From Laspinema palackyanum D2a (lineage in GTDB: Bacteria > Cyanobacteriota > Cyanobacteriia > Cyanobacteriales > Laspinemataceae), in NCBI GenBank assembly GCA_025370845.1, contig JAMXFF010000051.1:1-52648 (forward strand): 52,648 nt of DNA, written 5' to 3'. The position numbers and the translations under genes are program-made. The notes under the pieces are model-generated. The model was given only the letters and a program-made list of their open reading frames with translations, searched no databases and had not been told where the DNA came from. Below are positions 16,921 through 30,367 of this stretch, one piece after another (the first letter of the stretch is position 1; every line of letters begins with the position of its first letter).

Positions 16921-19188
16921 TTAAATCGCCCGGTAGATAAAGCTGAGAGTGGCCCAGTGATCCACATGAAGCGCCCAGCGATCGGGGGAACTGTTGGCAT
17001 TGGGGAGACTGGCAATGCTGGCAGTATGGAGGTCCTGTAAAATTGCTTGGACGATCGCCAGGGGATTGGTCACTGGCATCAGGGGTTGGGCATCTCCTTG
17101 GGGACGCATGAAACCGGATAACGCGGAAAAGGTTTTTGTAAAAGGACTGGATGAAAAAATCACTTGGGTTTCTGTTAATCCCGCTTGACCATGAACCACC
17201 CATGAACCCGTCCCCGAACCTGTCGGAATCGTCAGGGTTTCTCCGGGAAGCAGCATATTTTGTTCTAAGGTGGGCTGAGTTTGTCCAGTATTGGAATTGT
17301 TCGGGTCATCAGAGGGATACAGAACCACGGCATTACCACTGTTTTCTAAGGAAAACAACAGGCAGTACAGGGGGCGATCGCTATAATTAAAGGCCCGATA
17401 CCGAATCCGACTCCCCAAGGGAACCCCCAACGGACTATTCCCGTTCCGCGACAAGGGAACCGCAGATAACTCGGGAGCTTCCCAAGGGGCGCGACGGGTT
17501 TCGCTTTGGACGATCGCCTTCCCTTCGGGTCCCAAAGTTTCCAAGTTGACCCGCACTCCCAACCGAGAAGACCCTTCATTCGCAGTTAACCGCAATAATT
17601 TGGTTGCCAGCAAGGTTTGCAGTTGCGGAACTAACCGTTGAGCAGAGGATTTAATCGCTTCTCCCTGTTCTCCCATCGTGTTCAGCAGCAGGTTTTTCCC
17701 CAAGGAAAATAGCGCATAACTCCCGGGGGGAATCATCGGTAAGGCAGAACTCGGCAGTTGCGCTAACATCGCCTCTTGAGCTCGCCCAAATAAATAGTCG
17801 GCCGGTTGTTCTCCGGCAATCACAGTGGTCACTCGGGGAATTCCAGCAAAGGCACTGGTGGCATCCACCCGTTCGATGCGTTGCAATCCGGCATCTAAGG
17901 CAATGGTCAAGTTGATATTCCGGGGAATGGTCCGGACTGTTTCTTGGACGACTTGACCGACTTTCACGGGGTTGGGAGACTGAGGCGTTGATTTGTCTAA
18001 CCCTAAGACTTGCGCTTTAATGGTTAATCCCTCTCGCGATCGCACCTGGAAGCGGTAAGATGGCGCATCGGTTCCGGCTACAGGAACTGGGGTTAAAATC
18101 GAATTGACTTCTAAGGATTCGATCGCCTGGATCGGAAGTCCCCCCAACCACAAAACTGCCGTTTGACCGTTGTCTTCTAGGGCTGTAACGACACCCTCGG
18201 CACTGGGTTGATTGAAGACAAAACCCGGTAAGCTTTCATCGGGAAGATTGTTCCCTTCCCCGGACGGTGGCGCTTCTAAGGTTTTTAAAAGTTGGGGTTG
18301 TTGTAGGGGAAAACCCGCTATTTGCTGGACGGCACAAGAAGCTTTCTGGAGACTAGATTGCAGGGTATTCCCTGGAGTGGCTAACCACAGTTGCTGGGTG
18401 ATGGCATAAGTAAAGACTCCGGCGCTAAAGCCATTCCATCGCCCTTCCGTGGCTAACTGATTGGCACCGGAGGCCGCCAAAACCACCCCTTTAAAGGAGG
18501 AGGGCGATCGCGGAAACAATAAGGTGGGTTTTGGGCTAATGGTTTCCAGGAAGGCGAGTTCGGCATCACTGGGATTGCCGGTGGGAACCCCTTGTTGGGA
18601 GCGAATTCGGAGATTTCCTTGGAGGTTGGTCCCCGGATAGCTGTAGCTGGTATCCAAAACAGCGATCGCCCGGTCCGTTTTCAGCGATCGCAACAGTTCC
18701 CAGAGGGTCGCTTCTAAAATATCATTCGCGCTTCGTCCCCCACTGCCAGTTCCCCCATCCACCGGCATCAAACTCGTTTGCAATCCCGTGGTGGATTGGT
18801 CCCAATTAATCCGACGACCATATCCACTAAAGTGGAACACCACCAAATCCCCATTTGTGGCTTGCTGTCCCAAGTGATTGATAAAAGCATCTTCAATATT
18901 GGCACGAGTGGCTTGTTCATCGGTGAGGGTGACAATATCCCGGGGATTAAACCCAAACCGATAGATCAAAAGTTGTCGTTGCAGTTCCACATCGGTGACA
19001 CAACCGGAAAGGGGATTTAAGCCCGGATAGGCGTTGATCCCCACTAATAACGCCAACTTGCCAGAGGCGGGTGCTGCCAAAGCTTGGTAATAGCGCTGGC
19101 TAGATTTCCAGATGATGGACTCGCTAATTCCCAACCCGGCTAGGATGCCGCTTGCCCTGCGTAAAAATTCTCGTCGCTTCAGTCCCAT
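16921..19188 (-). CDS. Orthocaspase (C14 caspase-like) homologue with Tyr-Ser in place of His-Cys
   Basis: Exported or membrane-side caspase-fold protein, 755 aa. The N-terminus has a twin-arginine-like signal (LKRREFLRRASGILAGLGIS). The p20 caspase fold spans ~42-240 (KLALLVGINAYPGLNPL, then GDLVVFHFSGYGRR and AIAVLDTSYSYPG). In active members these last two motifs read FSGHG and DACHSG. Here the catalytic His is Tyr123 and the Cys is Ser181, so the classical dyad is lost. A C-terminal DUF4384-like beta domain lies at ~600-690 (RPLYCLLFSLENSGNAVVLYP, LLPGETLTIP). Such Tyr-Ser variants are known among cyanobacterial orthocaspases and are thought to lack protease activity, perhaps acting as partners or regulators. 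ATG 19188 gives the complete signal sequence. It is a single gene with a convergent neighbour. Confidence 0.9.
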   Translation of the reverse strand: MGLKRREFLRRASGILAGLGISESIIWKSSQRYYQALAAPASGKLALLVGINAYPGLNPLSGCVTDVELQRQLLIYRFGFNPRDIVTLTDEQATRANIEDAFINHLGQQATNGDLVVFHFSGYGRRINWDQSTTGLQTSLMPVDGGTGSGGRSANDILEATLWELLRSLKTDRAIAVLDTSYSYPGTNLQGNLRIRSQQGVPTGNPSDAELAFLETISPKPTLLFPRSPSSFKGVVLAASGANQLATEGRWNGFSAGVFTYAITQQLWLATPGNTLQSSLQKASCAVQQIAGFPLQQPQLLKTLEAPPSGEGNNLPDESLPGFVFNQPSAEGVVTALEDNGQTAVLWLGGLPIQAIESLEVNSILTPVPVAGTDAPSYRFQVRSREGLTIKAQVLGLDKSTPQSPNPVKVGQVVQETVRTIPRNINLTIALDAGLQRIERVDATSAFAGIPRVTTVIAGEQPADYLFGRAQEAMLAQLPSSALPMIPPGSYALFSLGKNLLLNTMGEQGEAIKSSAQRLVPQLQTLLATKLLRLTANEGSSRLGVRVNLETLGPEGKAIVQSETRRAPWEAPELSAVPLSRNGNSPLGVPLGSRIRYRAFNYSDRPLYCLLFSLENSGNAVVLYPSDDPNNSNTGQTQPTLEQNMLLPGETLTIPTGSGTGSWVVHGQAGLTETQVIFSSSPFTKTFSALSGFMRPQGDAQPLMPVTNPLAIVQAILQDLHTASIASLPNANSSPDRWALHVDHWATLSFIYRAI

Positions 19189-23410: not shown

Positions 23411-25107
23411 GCAACCCAGAAGAAACGCTCCAGCTTAAAATCCAGCACCCGCCCGATCGGGAACAAGATGCTCCCACTCCTGGAAACCCAGGCTTCCAAC
23501 TGCCCTCTGAGTTGCCCATTCATTCAGAAAATAGGACCGTGACCCCACAACAAAACCGCCAAAACCAGATTCATCAATTCATCGTGACTTCATCGCAAAT
23601 GAGCGCCATTGAAGAGCGAATCTTTGCCGCAGGAATGCCGGTGGCTGCATTGATGGAAAAGGTTGCCCAAGCTATTTTTAAGCGCTTGTTTGCCCTCTAT
23701 CCTCGTCCCGGAGTCCAACGAGTTGGGGTTTTGGTAGGTCCGGGTCACAATGGCGGGGATGCTTTGGTGGTCGCCCGAGAGTTACATTTTGCCGGATATG
23801 AGGTGCTGATTTATCGACCCCTTTCTAAAAGTAAGGAGTTGACCCAGCAACATGGGGAATATGTGGCGAGTTTGGGAGTCAAGTTTTTTGACCAAATCGA
23901 ACCGCTTCTGGATTGCGATTTGATTGTGGATGGATTATTTGGATTCGGATTAGAACGGTCAATTTCTGGAGAGATTGCTCAGGGAATTGACCGATTAAAT
24001 GAACAGTCTCAATCCGTGATTAGTATTGATTTACCCTCGGGGTTGCATACGGATACGGGAGCAGTTTTAGGAACGGCTATTCAGGCGAATCATACCTTTT
24101 GCTTGGGTTTATGGAAGTTAGGGTTATTTCATGATCAAGCGTTGGCTTATGTGGGAAAGGCGGAATTAATTGATTTTGATATTCCTCTGGCCGATATTCA
24201 GGCGGTGTTAGGCGATCGCAATCCTATCCACCGGATTACCTCAACAGTGGCCCTCGCCCATCTCCCCCTTCCCCGTCCTCAATTGACCCATAAGTATAAG
24301 GAAGGACATCTCCTGGCAATCTGTGGTTCTCAACGGTATATGGGTGCGGCCCTATTATGTGGGTTGGGTGCGAAGGCATCGGGGGTGGGAATGTTAACGA
24401 TCGCCGTTCCCAAGTCGCTCAAACCCTACATGAGTCAGCAATTAGCCGATGCGCTGGTTCTTGGATGCCCAGAAACTGCTTCCGGTGCGATCGCCCAATT
24501 GCCTGATAGCATCGACTTGAGTTCGTTTGGGGCGATCGCCTGTGGTTGTGGTTTAACCCTAGATGCAATGGCGGTAGTCCAAGCGGTATTAGAAAGCGAT
24601 CGACCCTTGATTTTAGATGCCGATGGATTAAATGCTTTGGCGCAATTGGGGACCATTCCCACCCTCTGCCAACGACAAGCTTTTACCCTGTTGACCCCCC
24701 ATCCCGGAGAATTTAAGCGTTTGTTTCCCGAGGTTGAAGGGGAAGCGGAGGATGGAGTGCGGGCTGTGCGTCGGGCTTCTGAGCAAAGTGGGGCGGTGGT
24801 GATGCTCAAACAAGCCAGGACGGCGATCGGCTATCCCGATGGATCGGTTTGGATTAACCCCGAAAGCACCCCGGCATTAGCACGAGGTGGCAGTGGCGAT
24901 GTCTTAACCGGGTTATCCAGTGGTTTAATTGCTCAGGCGATCGCCCGGAAAATTCCCCTGGAACCCCTGGTGCAAACCGCAGTCTGGTGGCACGCTCAAT
25001 CTGCTATTTCTGCTGCAACAGTTCGCACCGAGTTAGGAGTGGATGCGGTGACGTTAAGCGAATATTTACTAACGGTTTTACCCCAGTTCCTGCGATCGGG
25101 CAATTAG
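23407..25107 (+). CDS. nnr: Bifunctional NAD(P)H-hydrate epimerase / ADP-dependent dehydratase
   Basis: Repairs NAD(P)HX hydrates. The N-terminal YjeF domain (~60-270) is the epimerase (GPGHNGGDALVVAREL near 111). The C-terminal carbohydrate-kinase-like domain (~290-560) is the dehydratase, with LTPHPGEFKRLFP and RGGSGDVLTG (Gly494-Asp498). It starts at GTG 23407, overlapping the SPOR-like stop as GTGA. The first ~55 residues are not conserved in appearance, and a GTG at 23539 (residue 45) preceded by AGGA would give a more usual length, so the start is uncertain. The last gene of a two-gene operon; it is followed by the tandem RNA-like region on the opposite strand. Confidence 0.94.
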   Translation: MSNPEETLQLKIQHPPDREQDAPTPGNPGFQLPSELPIHSENRTVTPQQNRQNQIHQFIVTSSQMSAIEERIFAAGMPVAALMEKVAQAIFKRLFALYPRPGVQRVGVLVGPGHNGGDALVVARELHFAGYEVLIYRPLSKSKELTQQHGEYVASLGVKFFDQIEPLLDCDLIVDGLFGFGLERSISGEIAQGIDRLNEQSQSVISIDLPSGLHTDTGAVLGTAIQANHTFCLGLWKLGLFHDQALAYVGKAELIDFDIPLADIQAVLGDRNPIHRITSTVALAHLPLPRPQLTHKYKEGHLLAICGSQRYMGAALLCGLGAKASGVGMLTIAVPKSLKPYMSQQLADALVLGCPETASGAIAQLPDSIDLSSFGAIACGCGLTLDAMAVVQAVLESDRPLILDADGLNALAQLGTIPTLCQRQAFTLLTPHPGEFKRLFPEVEGEAEDGVRAVRRASEQSGAVVMLKQARTAIGYPDGSVWINPESTPALARGGSGDVLTGLSSGLIAQAIARKIPLEPLVQTAVWWHAQSAISAATVRTELGVDAVTLSEYLLTVLPQFLRSGN

Positions 25108-25179: not shown

Positions 25180-25429
25180 CCAAACAAAACAACACCCAAG
25201 ACTTACTCGCTGAGTGATTTCCTCTTTTTTGCAATGTTCGCAGTTTCCCTAACTTAAACAGTTTAGGATTATTTCTGCCGAGTCCACTATTTGAGGAAAT
25301 ATCAGCCCTTAGTTTGGGTGTTGTTCGGGTTTTGGTACGAGACAGATGTTAGATTAAACAGCTTGAACCTCTTTAAGCTAATTTGAACTTGGCTGTTGTA
25401 ATCTGCCAAGGAAGCTCTTTCCGCTTCCA
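25180..25429 (-). ncRNA. Candidate structured RNA, copy A of a tandem pair
   Basis: Non-coding element nearly repeated at 25677-25928. On the minus strand a promoter (TTGCCA, 16 bases, TAAATT) ends 8 bases before the conserved block. The predicted RNA opens with a 6-bp hairpin (GGAAGC/GCUUCC, 25428-25410) and a second hairpin (CUUGGC/GCCAAG). After an AAAGAGG stretch comes a long rod closed by a 12-bp stem (25314-25325 with 25188-25199). The rod also has an 8-bp stem (293-300 with 217-224), GGCAG/CUGC-type pairing and an apical CCUAAACU/AGUUAGG hairpin. A GUUGUUUUGUUU tract follows the closing stem like a terminator. The rod with an open middle is reminiscent of 6S RNA, but identity is not shown. 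The plus strand could fold similarly; the promoters favour minus. Confidence 0.6.
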
Positions 25430-25436
25430 TATATTT

Positions 25437-25464
25437 AATTTAGCACGCTTTTGAGTAATGGCAA
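25437..25464 (-). promoter_or_regulatory. Promoter of RNA candidate A
   Basis: Minus-strand -35 TTGCCA (25464-25459), 16-base spacer and -10 TAAATT (25442-25437). Transcription would start at about 25429, exactly at the conserved 5' hairpin. Copy B has boxes at the same place although the surrounding sequence is unrelated. Confidence 0.55.
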
Positions 25465-25676
25465 GGGAATGATATAAAACTTTACTTAATTTACCCGAGG
25501 CTGGGTTACCTCGTAAATTTATCTGAATTTCGGGCAGAACATGGGATGAAGGCTTGTTTCCGGAGTAGATTCTGATTAGGGAGCAGCGCGATCGCCACTT
25601 CTCCTATTCTTCACGAGACTCCATGCGATCGCCCCCGGAGGGATTTTAAAAATTGAGACTGACGGGCACCTGCCCG

Positions 25677-25928
25677 CCAAACAAAACAACACCCAAGACC
25701 GACTTGCTGAGTGATTTCCTCTCAATTTCAATGTTCGCAGGCTGCCTAACTTAAAAAGTTTAGGAGTATTGCTGCCGATTCCACGATTTGAGGAAATATC
25801 AGACTTTGGTTTGGGTGTTGTTCGGGTTTTGATACGACGAGACAGATGTTAGATTAAACAGCTTGAACCTCTTTAAGCTAATTTGAACTTGTCTGCTGTT
25901 TTCTGCCAGGGAAGCTCTTTCGGCTTCA
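25677..25928 (-). ncRNA. Candidate structured RNA, copy B of a tandem pair
   Basis: Second direct copy of the 25180-25429 element, offset ~497 bases, with most positions identical by eye. The rod-closing stem (25811-25822 with 25685-25696) and the 8-bp stem (25790-25797 with 25714-25721) are fully kept. Changes fall mainly in loops and bulges: the apical loop, the loop of the 5' hairpin, and the linker between CUGC and the AUUUCCUC stem. The 5' hairpin is shortened to 5 bp (GAAGC/GCUUC). The minus-strand promoter (TTGCAT, 16 bases, TACATT) lies at the same distance as in copy A. No shared open frame exists in either strand. Retention of structure and promoter across divergence suggests two functional small RNAs rather than a decaying repeat. 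Confidence 0.6.
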
Positions 25929-25934
25929 TTTATT

Positions 25935-25962
25935 AATGTATCATCATTTTTCGGGAATGCAA
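25935..25962 (-). promoter_or_regulatory. Promoter of RNA candidate B
   Basis: Minus-strand -35 TTGCAT (25962-25957), 16-base spacer and -10 TACATT (25940-25935). It ends 7 bases before the conserved block begins at 25927. Box spacing equals that of copy A. Confidence 0.55.
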
Positions 25963-26444
25963 GCCTTAGAAATAAAGGTTTACATAAATCTGAGCAAAGT
26001 ATCTCCCAAGTATGAATTTAAGTAAACATTTCTTTCCCACCCGGGATCACTCCTGTGCAAAAGGGTTGCGGCTACCGAGTTGGAGACCTTTCTCTAAAGT
26101 ATTGGTGTATCAGATGCAAGGCACAGGAAATCGGGGTTCTGCCCTAAAATTTAGGAAGAATCAGCAGGGAGTTATCACCAACAAGGCTCCAGTGGGAGAA
26201 AACTGAGCACCCGGCCCCACTCCATTGCTCCAAACCACTCCAAACCGCAGAAATATCAAATATCAGGGGACCCACTCCAGCTATCTACTTCTAAAGAAAG
26301 ATGCGCTATCCCTGAATTTTTTCCTAGAGTAAGTCCACTTATTATCAATGATCGCGCGGGTTAACTTTGAGAATGGGGATACCCGTGGCAACTTTGTTTT
26401 CAGGGTCAGACCCATTCTGACCGCTTTTATTTGGAGGTTTCACA

Positions 26445-27056
26445 ATGTTAAATAGATTTAACAAGACATCCCTTAACAAAACCAGCCCTTTGGTTCGCGG
26501 ATCTTCCCTGTTTGGAAAGGTGAACGGGGCGATCGCCCTCGGACTGATGCTCCTGGTGCTGCCTGCTTGCGACGCGGCGGATCAAACCACGACTACGACG
26601 ACCACAGAAACCGGAACTGATACCACCATGACTCCGGAAACTGACACCACCATGACTCCAGGGCCTGGAGCTACAACCACTCCAGGGATGGAGACTACAG
26701 GCATGATCGCTGAGCTTGAGGAGGTTGCGGACAATCCTAACCAGTTTATGGGTCAAACCGTGACCCTCAATGGTGAAGTGGCAGAAGTGCTGGGACCTAA
26801 TGTTTTCCGGATCCAAGAAGATGAGGCCGTTGGTGGGAGCGATATCATTGTGATTACAACCGATTCCCAAACGCCGGTGATGGAAGATAGTCAAGTCCAG
26901 GTGACGGGAGAAGTTCGTCAATTGGTGATTACTGAAATTGAACGGGATTACGATCTCGGCTGGGATGATAGTTTACGCACGGAAATCGAACGGGAATACA
27001 CCGATCGCCCTGCGCTTGTGGCCCAGTCAATCCAGCCCATGATGACCAATCCTTAA
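26445..27056 (+). CDS. Lipoprotein with Thr-rich linker and OB-like C-terminal domain
   Basis: Membrane-anchored lipoprotein of 203 aa, function unknown. The start ATG 26445 has an excellent GGAGG site 8 bases upstream. A basic N-terminus and hydrophobic stretch end at a lipobox LPAC (Cys42). Residues ~45-85 are a Thr/Pro/Met linker with TTTTTTTETGTDTT and two copies of ETDTTMTP-like repeats. The C-terminal ~110 residues look like an OB-fold-type domain (MGQTVTLNGEVAEVLGPNVFRI, then SQVQVTGEVRQLVI), a pattern shared with stress-related lipoproteins of unknown role. It is a single gene ended by a 13-15-bp hairpin. Confidence 0.8.
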   Translation: MLNRFNKTSLNKTSPLVRGSSLFGKVNGAIALGLMLLVLPACDAADQTTTTTTTETGTDTTMTPETDTTMTPGPGATTTPGMETTGMIAELEEVADNPNQFMGQTVTLNGEVAEVLGPNVFRIQEDEAVGGSDIIVITTDSQTPVMEDSQVQVTGEVRQLVITEIERDYDLGWDDSLRTEIEREYTDRPALVAQSIQPMMTNP

Positions 27057-27499: not shown

Positions 27500-27519
27500 A
27501 TTCTTCCGATTTTAGAGAG

Positions 27520-27601
27520 TGGGCGAGGCGAGAGTCGAACTCGCACGACCGAAGCCGCCACATTTTGAGTGTGGTGCGTCTACCAATTTCGCCACTCGCC
27601 C
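27520..27601 (-). tRNA. tRNA-Leu (anticodon CAA)
   Basis: 82-nt class II tRNA on the minus strand. The 7-bp acceptor stem GGGCGAG/CTCGCCC is followed by discriminator A. The D arm has AATTGGTAGA and the anticodon stem CCACA/TGTGG holds loop CTCAAAA, giving CAA. A long variable arm (CGGCTTCGG) and T loop TTCGACT are present. CCA is not encoded. Its 5' 22 bases lie inside the 3' end of the upstream M48 protease gene on the same strand. Confidence 0.95.
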
Positions 27602-30283: not shown

Positions 30284-30367
30284 GCGGAACTGGCGGAATT
30301 GGTAGACGCGCTAGATTCAGGTTCTAGTGTCCGCAAGGACTTCCGGGTTCAAGTCCCGGGTTCCGCA
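30284..30367 (+). tRNA. tRNA-Leu (anticodon CAG)
   Basis: 84-nt class II tRNA. Acceptor stem GCGGAAC/GTTCCGC with discriminator A; D arm with AATTGGTAGACGCG; anticodon stem CTAGA/TCTAG with loop TTCAGGT giving CAG; variable arm TGTCCGCAAGGACT; T loop TTCAAGT. CCA is not encoded. It ends 23 bases before the SpoU methyltransferase gene, so the two probably share one transcript. Confidence 0.97.

Follow-up and report, generated by a model that had tools for sequence, protein, structure and literature searches.

A tandem pair of predicted RNA genes in Laspinema palackyanum D2a represents a putative family of stand-alone structured RNAs in cyanobacteria

The window analyzed here, a stretch of 52,648 nucleotides from Laspinema palackyanum D2a (contig JAMXFF010000051.1), contains two tandem copies of an RNA that is almost certainly conserved and structured. 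Sequence comparisons are best read as indicating a new family inside a known kind, the stand-alone structured RNAs of bacteria, with a putative regulatory role, and we place at roughly 0.6 the probability that both copies are genes of such a cyanobacterial family of non-coding RNAs of ~250-270 nt. An action in trans, rather than one purely in cis, is quite probable given the gene arrangements described below. Filamentous and many unicellular cyanobacteria carry this RNA in up to several copies, and it matches no Rfam 15 family. If this reading is true, the RNA would supply a so far missing component of gene control for a group that is central to photosynthesis and nitrogen fixation.

Both copies lie on the minus strand within a 1.3-kb gap that extends from the end of a plus-strand gene at 25107, which we take to be of the nnr type, to a plus-strand gene starting at 26445 that is presumably lipoprotein-like. 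Copy B occupies 25182-25428 and copy A 25679-25928, with scores of 232.8 and 225 bits, respectively, against our covariance model R1, the seed of which includes both copies. They are direct repeats of one element, 88-93% alike and 497-500 nt apart, with a repeat search aligning 25180-25340 with 25677-25837 (88% over 161 nt, spacing 497) and 25337-25427 with 25837-25927 (93% over 91 nt, spacing 500). This bears out a preliminary description of the region that reported two direct copies 497 bases apart, and the 12-bp closing stem, 8-bp internal stem and apical hairpin that it assigned to both copies were likewise recovered from sequence and folds. The closing stem (AACAACACCCAA/TTGGGTGTTGTT) pairs perfectly in each copy and has arms that are 114 nt apart. 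In copy B its 3' arm at 25188-25199 is 100% complementary to the 5' arm at 25314-25325 and is paired in the single-sequence fold; in copy A a 3' arm at 25685-25696 is 100% complementary to a 5' arm at 25811-25822, the 5' arms of both copies having been located by a repeat and complementarity search. Both sequences and both minimum-energy folds contain the internal stem (ATTTCCTC/GAGGAAAT) as well as the apical hairpin, with the 3' and 5' arms of the internal stem at 25217-25224 (GAGGAAAU) and 25293-25300 (AUUUCCUC) in copy B and at 25714-25721 and 25790-25797 in copy A. Both copies fold more stably than their dinucleotide shuffles, with z = -5.66 for copy B and z = -2.58 for copy A. A third, more divergent copy is present in the same genome (C63:171937-172195) near a gene that we assume to be lysC-like.

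The RNA family has a common ancestry and is widely conserved in cyanobacteria, though it is not universal. A blastn search located the element in 58 of 99 genomes (the organism's own and those of relatives), and covariance model R1 detected it in 99 of 386 cyanobacterial genomes, its own included, which represent 57 of 140 genera. Ninety-two of these 99 positive genomes belong to the window's own order, among at least 105 genomes of that order; absences in the larger searches are not firm because all searches over 40 genomes were run with stricter filters. More than one R1 match occurs in 33 genomes, and in 12 there are non-overlapping matches within 1.5 kb of each other, which we count as tandem. 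Overlapping matches, found in six genomes, were excluded from the tandem count, and five of these six are among the 33 only by virtue of the overlap. One genome (G387) has a match on the opposite strand from another. An exact composite pattern of the 5' domain occurs in at least 115 stretches of the genome collection, and among the matches listed 114 of 115 fit the family profile. All of these 114 are cyanobacterial as judged by their titles, and the lone miss is a Granulosicoccaceae bin. Most of the pattern matches have the full model length and a few are shorter, some of them where the stretch itself ends (L097, L098). Carriers among the matches listed include Nostoc, Fischerella, Chlorogloeopsis, Crocosphaera, Acaryochloris, Leptolyngbya, Gloeocapsopsis, Spirulina, Synechocystis salina and a Pseudanabaenales bin, as well as others.

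Conservation was also measured within the genus. In seven other genomes of the genus both RNAs are 90-100% identical to those of the window, with 65-97% identity in the spacer between them and 43-99% in the region above copy A. The nnr-type gene is absent beside the pair in three of these seven congeners as judged by tblastn, and both RNAs are retained there.

The RNA is predicted to fold into two domains, on the basis of an alignment of 97 non-redundant sequences; these were drawn from 144 distinct sequences retained after filtering by bit score and length. Its 3' rod is composed of a long closing stem, a UUUCCUC stem, a GGGAG stem and a variable apical hairpin, and this architecture is backed by covariation. 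An APC-corrected G-test was used to rank all 32,640 column pairs with a separation of 4 columns or more, the null being the inferred substitutions replayed on the tree. In this structure-blind ranking the top five covarying pairs all fall within predicted helices, six of the 12 best pairs are inside helices and six outside, and two pairs reach E<0.05 over all pairs. When the phylogeny-aware test was limited to the 60 base pairs that RNAalifold predicts for the consensus, five had E<0.05 and fifteen E<1; in six controls with one side of the helices slid by 1-3 columns, no pair fell below 0.05 and no more than one below 1. Of these two results we consider the structure-blind ranking cleaner, because the alignment that was tested had also yielded the RNAalifold consensus. 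Closing stem, GGGAG stem and apical hairpin between them contain the five supported pairs. Folding of 33 of the 97 sequences gave a mean z of -3.83, with 32 of the 33 below -2.

The second domain was missed by the preliminary description, as were the third copy and the breadth of the family. It is a conserved 5' domain comprised of a GAAGC hairpin (GAAGC/GCUUC) and of GGCAGAU/AUCUGUC and ACAGC/GCUGU stems that are predicted to enclose AAAGAGG, so that AGAGGU is borne by a loop of the consensus fold. These predicted stems are nearly invariant, and they are not provable by covariation because they hardly vary. A good part of the strongest conservation resides in this 5' domain and in the closing stem, and not in the middle of the rod.

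Each copy is preceded by a predicted promoter on the minus strand. The promoters of the form TTGCNW-16-TANATT that were noted earlier before both copies are confirmed by reading the sequence, as TTGCCA-16-TAAATT for copy B (25464-25459 and 25442-25437) and TTGCAT-16-TACATT for copy A (25962-25957 and 25940-25935). Comparison of the region before GAAG in 99 non-redundant copies, selected from 141, indicates that what the family shares is an extended -10 promoter, TGnTAWWnT, with a conserved element just upstream replacing a conserved -35. This strong element, at -60 to -41, reads about AAARKTAAAKTTT--TTYCAA. The earlier description overlooked that the -35 box is not family-wide, whereas the element further upstream is. 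The window copies carry this upstream element plus a -35-like TTGC box. In copy B the extended -10 (TGCTAAATT) is at 25437-25445, the -35-like TTGCCA at 25459-25464 and the upstream element (GTAAAGTTTTATATCA) at 25470-25485, all on the minus strand; in copy A the corresponding minus-strand features are at 25935-25943 (TGATACATT), 25957-25962 (TTGCAT) and 25969-25983 (GTAAACCTTTATTTC).

We read the upstream element as having the character of a 10-bp repeat. The consensus of HLR1, the binding site of RpaB, is given as (G/T)TTACA(T/A)(T/A)NN(G/T)TTACA(T/A)(T/A), and RpaB is described as activating from sites ~50-100 nt upstream (main text of PMC11633204). Scoring for HLR1 in reverse orientation peaked at -59, with a mean of 10.08 of 16 versus a background of 6.74 (sd 0.67), although the fit is poor in the second half of the site and the sequences' best scores (12.5) exceed those of shuffles (11.8) only slightly. 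The partial resemblance to an RpaB-type HLR1 site is a lead and not an assignment, and control by a regulator of the RpaB/RpaA type can be put forward only tentatively, at odds clearly short of even. As a separate observation, an inverted repeat (25471-25492 / 26015-26036; 22 nt, 77%) has one arm in the promoter element upstream of copy B and the other in a GTAAAC stretch that lies above copy A, and a similar second stretch, as judged by eye, is present at the third copy (L003).

The most conspicuous motif of the 5' domain is AAAGAGGU, located on the minus strand at 25367-25374 in copy B, where the consensus fold places it in a loop of the 5' domain, and at 25867-25874 in copy A. AGAGG is present in 95 of 97 homologues and AGAGGU in 91 of 97, counts that are biased upward because the fetch pattern for many of those sequences required AGAGG. 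Among the 33 sequences that were first found by blastn, and thus independently of the pattern, A57-G61 (AGAGG) is among the nearly invariant columns (at least 90%). AGAGG is unpaired in the consensus fold; in single-sequence folds a few letters in or beside AGAGGU are paired, and in that of copy B three letters of the AGAGG motif are engaged in a 3-bp helix.

As AAAGAGGU looks like a Shine-Dalgarno sequence, the RNA could conceivably be the mRNA of a small protein with this motif as its ribosome site, a reading to which we give practically no credence. The RNA shows no sign of coding: all three forward frames contain stops in 97 of 97 sequences, and the longest forward open reading frame has a median of 24 and a maximum of 48 amino acids. 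In the 93 sequences that have both GAGG and AUCUGUC, the distance between the two motifs is spread over the three frames (27/34/32). A small open reading frame behind AAAGAGGU was rejected after a scan of these sequences for a start codon 4-13 nt after GAGG, which found no ATG, GTG or TTG in 75 of 93, TTG in 17, GTG in one and ATG in none. With respect to the earlier suggestion that AAAGAGG could mimic a ribosome site, the motif is nearly invariant and unpaired in the consensus, and the start-codon scan speaks against its being the ribosome site of a small open reading frame; it might act as a decoy.

There are other ways in which such a loop might act. The tail of 16S rRNA contains ACCUC, the complement of GAGGU, so the RNA might titrate 30S subunits; it might just as well pair with CCUC-bearing RNAs or be bound by a protein. 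That the RNA acts through the AGAGGU loop, however this may occur, is a possibility that we rate somewhat under even odds, the loop itself being a feature of the predicted fold. Somewhat less weight goes to a base-pairing sRNA with a seed outside of AGAGGU, for example the UUUAAU or UCUCGUC that ends the 5' domain. Such a seed would fit the observation that an exact AUCUGUCUC occurs in 93 of 97 sequences and an exact AUCUGUCUCGU in 88 of 97, letters beyond the stem included, with both counts biased upward because the fetch pattern for many sequences required AUCUGUCUCGU.

The preliminary description could not assign the RNA to a known family, and this assessment was upheld by a covariance-model search of Rfam 15 that gave no match to either copy. 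At gathering score the search returned only two tRNAs in the window, and nothing in the 20 homologue-bearing loci that were searched out of 148; at a permissive threshold there were three sub-threshold matches with E values of 6.8-8.1, which is chance level. Two tRNA-Leu genes lie near the RNA pair, at 27519-27601 and 30284-30367 (anticodons caa and cag). The earlier claim of two functional structured RNAs that form a paralogous pair is, for what are putative transcripts, well backed by covariation, by conservation in the genus above that of the spacer, by the breadth of the family and by the lack of an Rfam match.

A likeness to 6S RNA had also been proposed. The two RNAs are alike in being stand-alone structured RNAs with a long rod, while the conserved 5' domain and the tandem copies are features of the present RNA when compared with 6S RNA (RF00013; cyanobacterial ssaA/6Sa). 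As a statement of membership the proposal does not hold, as RF00013 has no match over gathering score at the copies and the canonical 6S RNA is a separate gene elsewhere in the same genome (one match, 84.7 bits); identity with 6S was consequently rejected. One could still envision that the RNA is a diverged additional member of the 6S type, with RNA polymerase bound at the open middle of the rod, since the rod is long and has internal loops and the size is not far above that of 6S. We regard this as very unlikely in view of the missing RF00013 match, the canonical gene elsewhere, the tandem multi-copy arrangement and the location of a good part of the strongest conservation in the 5' domain and closing stem rather than in the middle of the rod.

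Several characterized cyanobacterial sRNAs also invite comparison. Yfr1 and Yfr2 are likewise wide in cyanobacteria (PMC4734099, PMC6778093), and Yfr2 is a family with members; in the marine lineage Yfr1 has a length of 54-57 nt (PMC4734099) versus ~250 nt here, and the present RNA has no Rfam match. NsiR1 of Nostoc PCC 7120 differs in being described as a HetR-dependent marker of differentiating heterocysts (PMC4734099). Similar in length is the unnamed sRNA 2462444f of Nostoc PCC 7120, a 258-nt, abundant and strongly transcribed RNA that was verified by Northern analysis and whose induction is independent of NtcA and HetR (Table 1 of PMC4734099). As listed in that paper it is restricted to heterocystous genomes, whereas the present RNA has a far broader distribution. 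R1 matches in 13 genomes of a single genus (g38), among which PCC 7120 was not recognized, are 266-277 nt in length and none is at the coordinate of 2462444f, so the two may or may not be the same RNA. Passages from PMC3610870, PMC6202907 and PMC6166021 name no matching RNA, and literature searches over the main text of open-licence papers turned up no such RNA family. Because its closing stem encloses more than 100 nt, this RNA may have escaped pipelines in which a local terminator hairpin is required.

Multiple and tandem copies with varied neighbors are also what one would expect of a mobile or phage-derived element such as a retron, an omega-RNA or an intron remnant, and at one Nostocales locus (L152:1944-3034) the RNA has just downstream two open reading frames that we take to be transposase-like. 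Against this stand the covariation and the conserved promoter, the absence of a match in 50,697 phage records and of an exact-pattern match in viral contigs, a single match in 72,556 plasmid records, and the 25 largest clusters of flanking genes, none of which resembles a reverse transcriptase or transposase when inspected by eye. A mobile origin accordingly receives hardly any weight. Phage, viral or plasmid origin was examined as a candidate in its own right and found little support (phage 0; viral contigs 0, by the exact pattern alone; plasmids one match).

Another alternative is that the RNA is a cis-acting leader, akin to a riboswitch or attenuator, of a gene for a ~256-aa protein, with the window copies being relics or displaced. 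Of the 115 loci listed, 64 encode this protein family on the strand of the RNA and downstream of it, 60 of them as the first gene; 60 of 115 is not an unbiased rate because the pattern-derived sample is rich in Nostoc. The distance from RNA end to gene is 13-127 nt in 51 of these 60 loci, most commonly 84 nt (15 times). The arrangement recurs in Nostoc, Leptolyngbya, Gloeocapsa, Chlorogloea and Pseudanabaenales records, among others, and the copies preceding the gene can be in tandem, as is the case with tandem riboswitches (L075, L134). As read from the sequence, RNA and gene are far enough apart in Nostoc-type loci to accommodate a separate promoter, and in Leptolyngbya-type loci they are often only ~30 nt apart.

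Despite this association the RNA is not always inherited together with the gene. No match to the protein at E ≤ 0.001 was found in 31 of 99 RNA-bearing genomes, and the gene occurs without the RNA in 20 of 88 genomes, some of these gene matches being broken or partial. The window's own genome is among the 31: it has three copies of the RNA and lacks the gene for the neighbor protein, so the RNA is not merely a leader. The window pair is convergent with the nnr-type gene and has no same-strand gene directly downstream, yet it is 90-100% conserved in the genus; other copies are near genes of different kinds, which we presume to be lysC-, hisH- or hox-like; and the copies share a promoter pattern of their own. 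A leader of the neighbor protein is therefore insufficient as a full account and unlikely as the explanation of the family, while a cis role is conceivable where the RNA directly precedes the gene (60 of 115 loci listed).

The neighbor protein is itself a conserved cyanobacterial protein (MxIIALKAWYL...; e.g., L049:2754-3518) with a highly conserved N-terminal half. Family scans with a homologue from locus L043 gave only PF05014 from Pfam, at an E value of 0.19 that is below the cut-off, and no match in NCBIfam. PADLOC gave a poor match (E 0.0077 over 42 residues), and a sequence search of the PDB returned nothing useful. Its predicted fold (pLDDT 81, pTM 0.62) is weakly like flavodiiron, STING, DNPH1 and TIR chains, with two matches at E ≤ 0.001 and TM-scores by query of 0.33-0.36, and weakly suggests a domain like TIR/DNPH1 or nucleoside-2-deoxyribosyltransferase. 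Two further protein families are encoded nearby, one of ~83 aa in 27 and another, which we assume to be MltA-like, in 22 of the 115 loci listed. A representative 83-aa protein (MPRTPNEYVVHLL...) encoded ~1.0 kb downstream of the RNA at locus L039 belongs to no Pfam or NCBIfam family. In Synechocystis salina (L143:4730-5007) the RNA is divergent to genes that are presumably hoxE/hoxF-like, and a 91-aa open reading frame overlaps the RNA on the opposite strand.

Returning to a stand-alone RNA that acts in trans, the features described above can be combined into a working model. An activator would drive transcription of each copy; the upstream site is a partial fit for OmpR-type regulators like RpaB and RpaA. 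The closing stem together with a U-rich tail would end and protect the transcript, serving as terminator and cap, and the rod would be a scaffold that is homogenized between copies. The 5' domain would act in trans, most simply by presenting AGAGGU to another RNA or to a motif-reading protein; candidate RNA partners are the anti-Shine-Dalgarno end of 16S rRNA and CCUC-bearing mRNAs or sRNAs. Tandem copies could provide raised dosage or separate control. In its most specific form, this would be an RNA regulator outside of Rfam that responds to photosynthetic state via an RpaB/RpaA-type activator and titrates ribosomes or a translation factor by means of AGAGGU, while tandem duplication, along with gene conversion in the scaffold half, would adjust how many copies there are; taken as a whole this version is a long shot. 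The model, together with the conserved motif and promoter, makes the RNA directly testable in laboratory strains.

Homogenization of the rod is suggested by comparison of the paralogues. The 5' halves of copies A and B are 11-15% different in each of eight genomes of the genus, and the 3' halves are 93-99% alike in five of the eight and 86-88% alike in the other three. Diverged 5' halves next to like 3' halves therefore suggest that the rod undergoes gene conversion and that the 5' halves, like the promoters, are maintained separately, a pattern for which branch supports vary. Elsewhere in the window, 16921-19188 encodes a 755-aa open reading frame with a start (LALLVGINAYPG) that, as far as we can judge, resembles a caspase-type peptidase.
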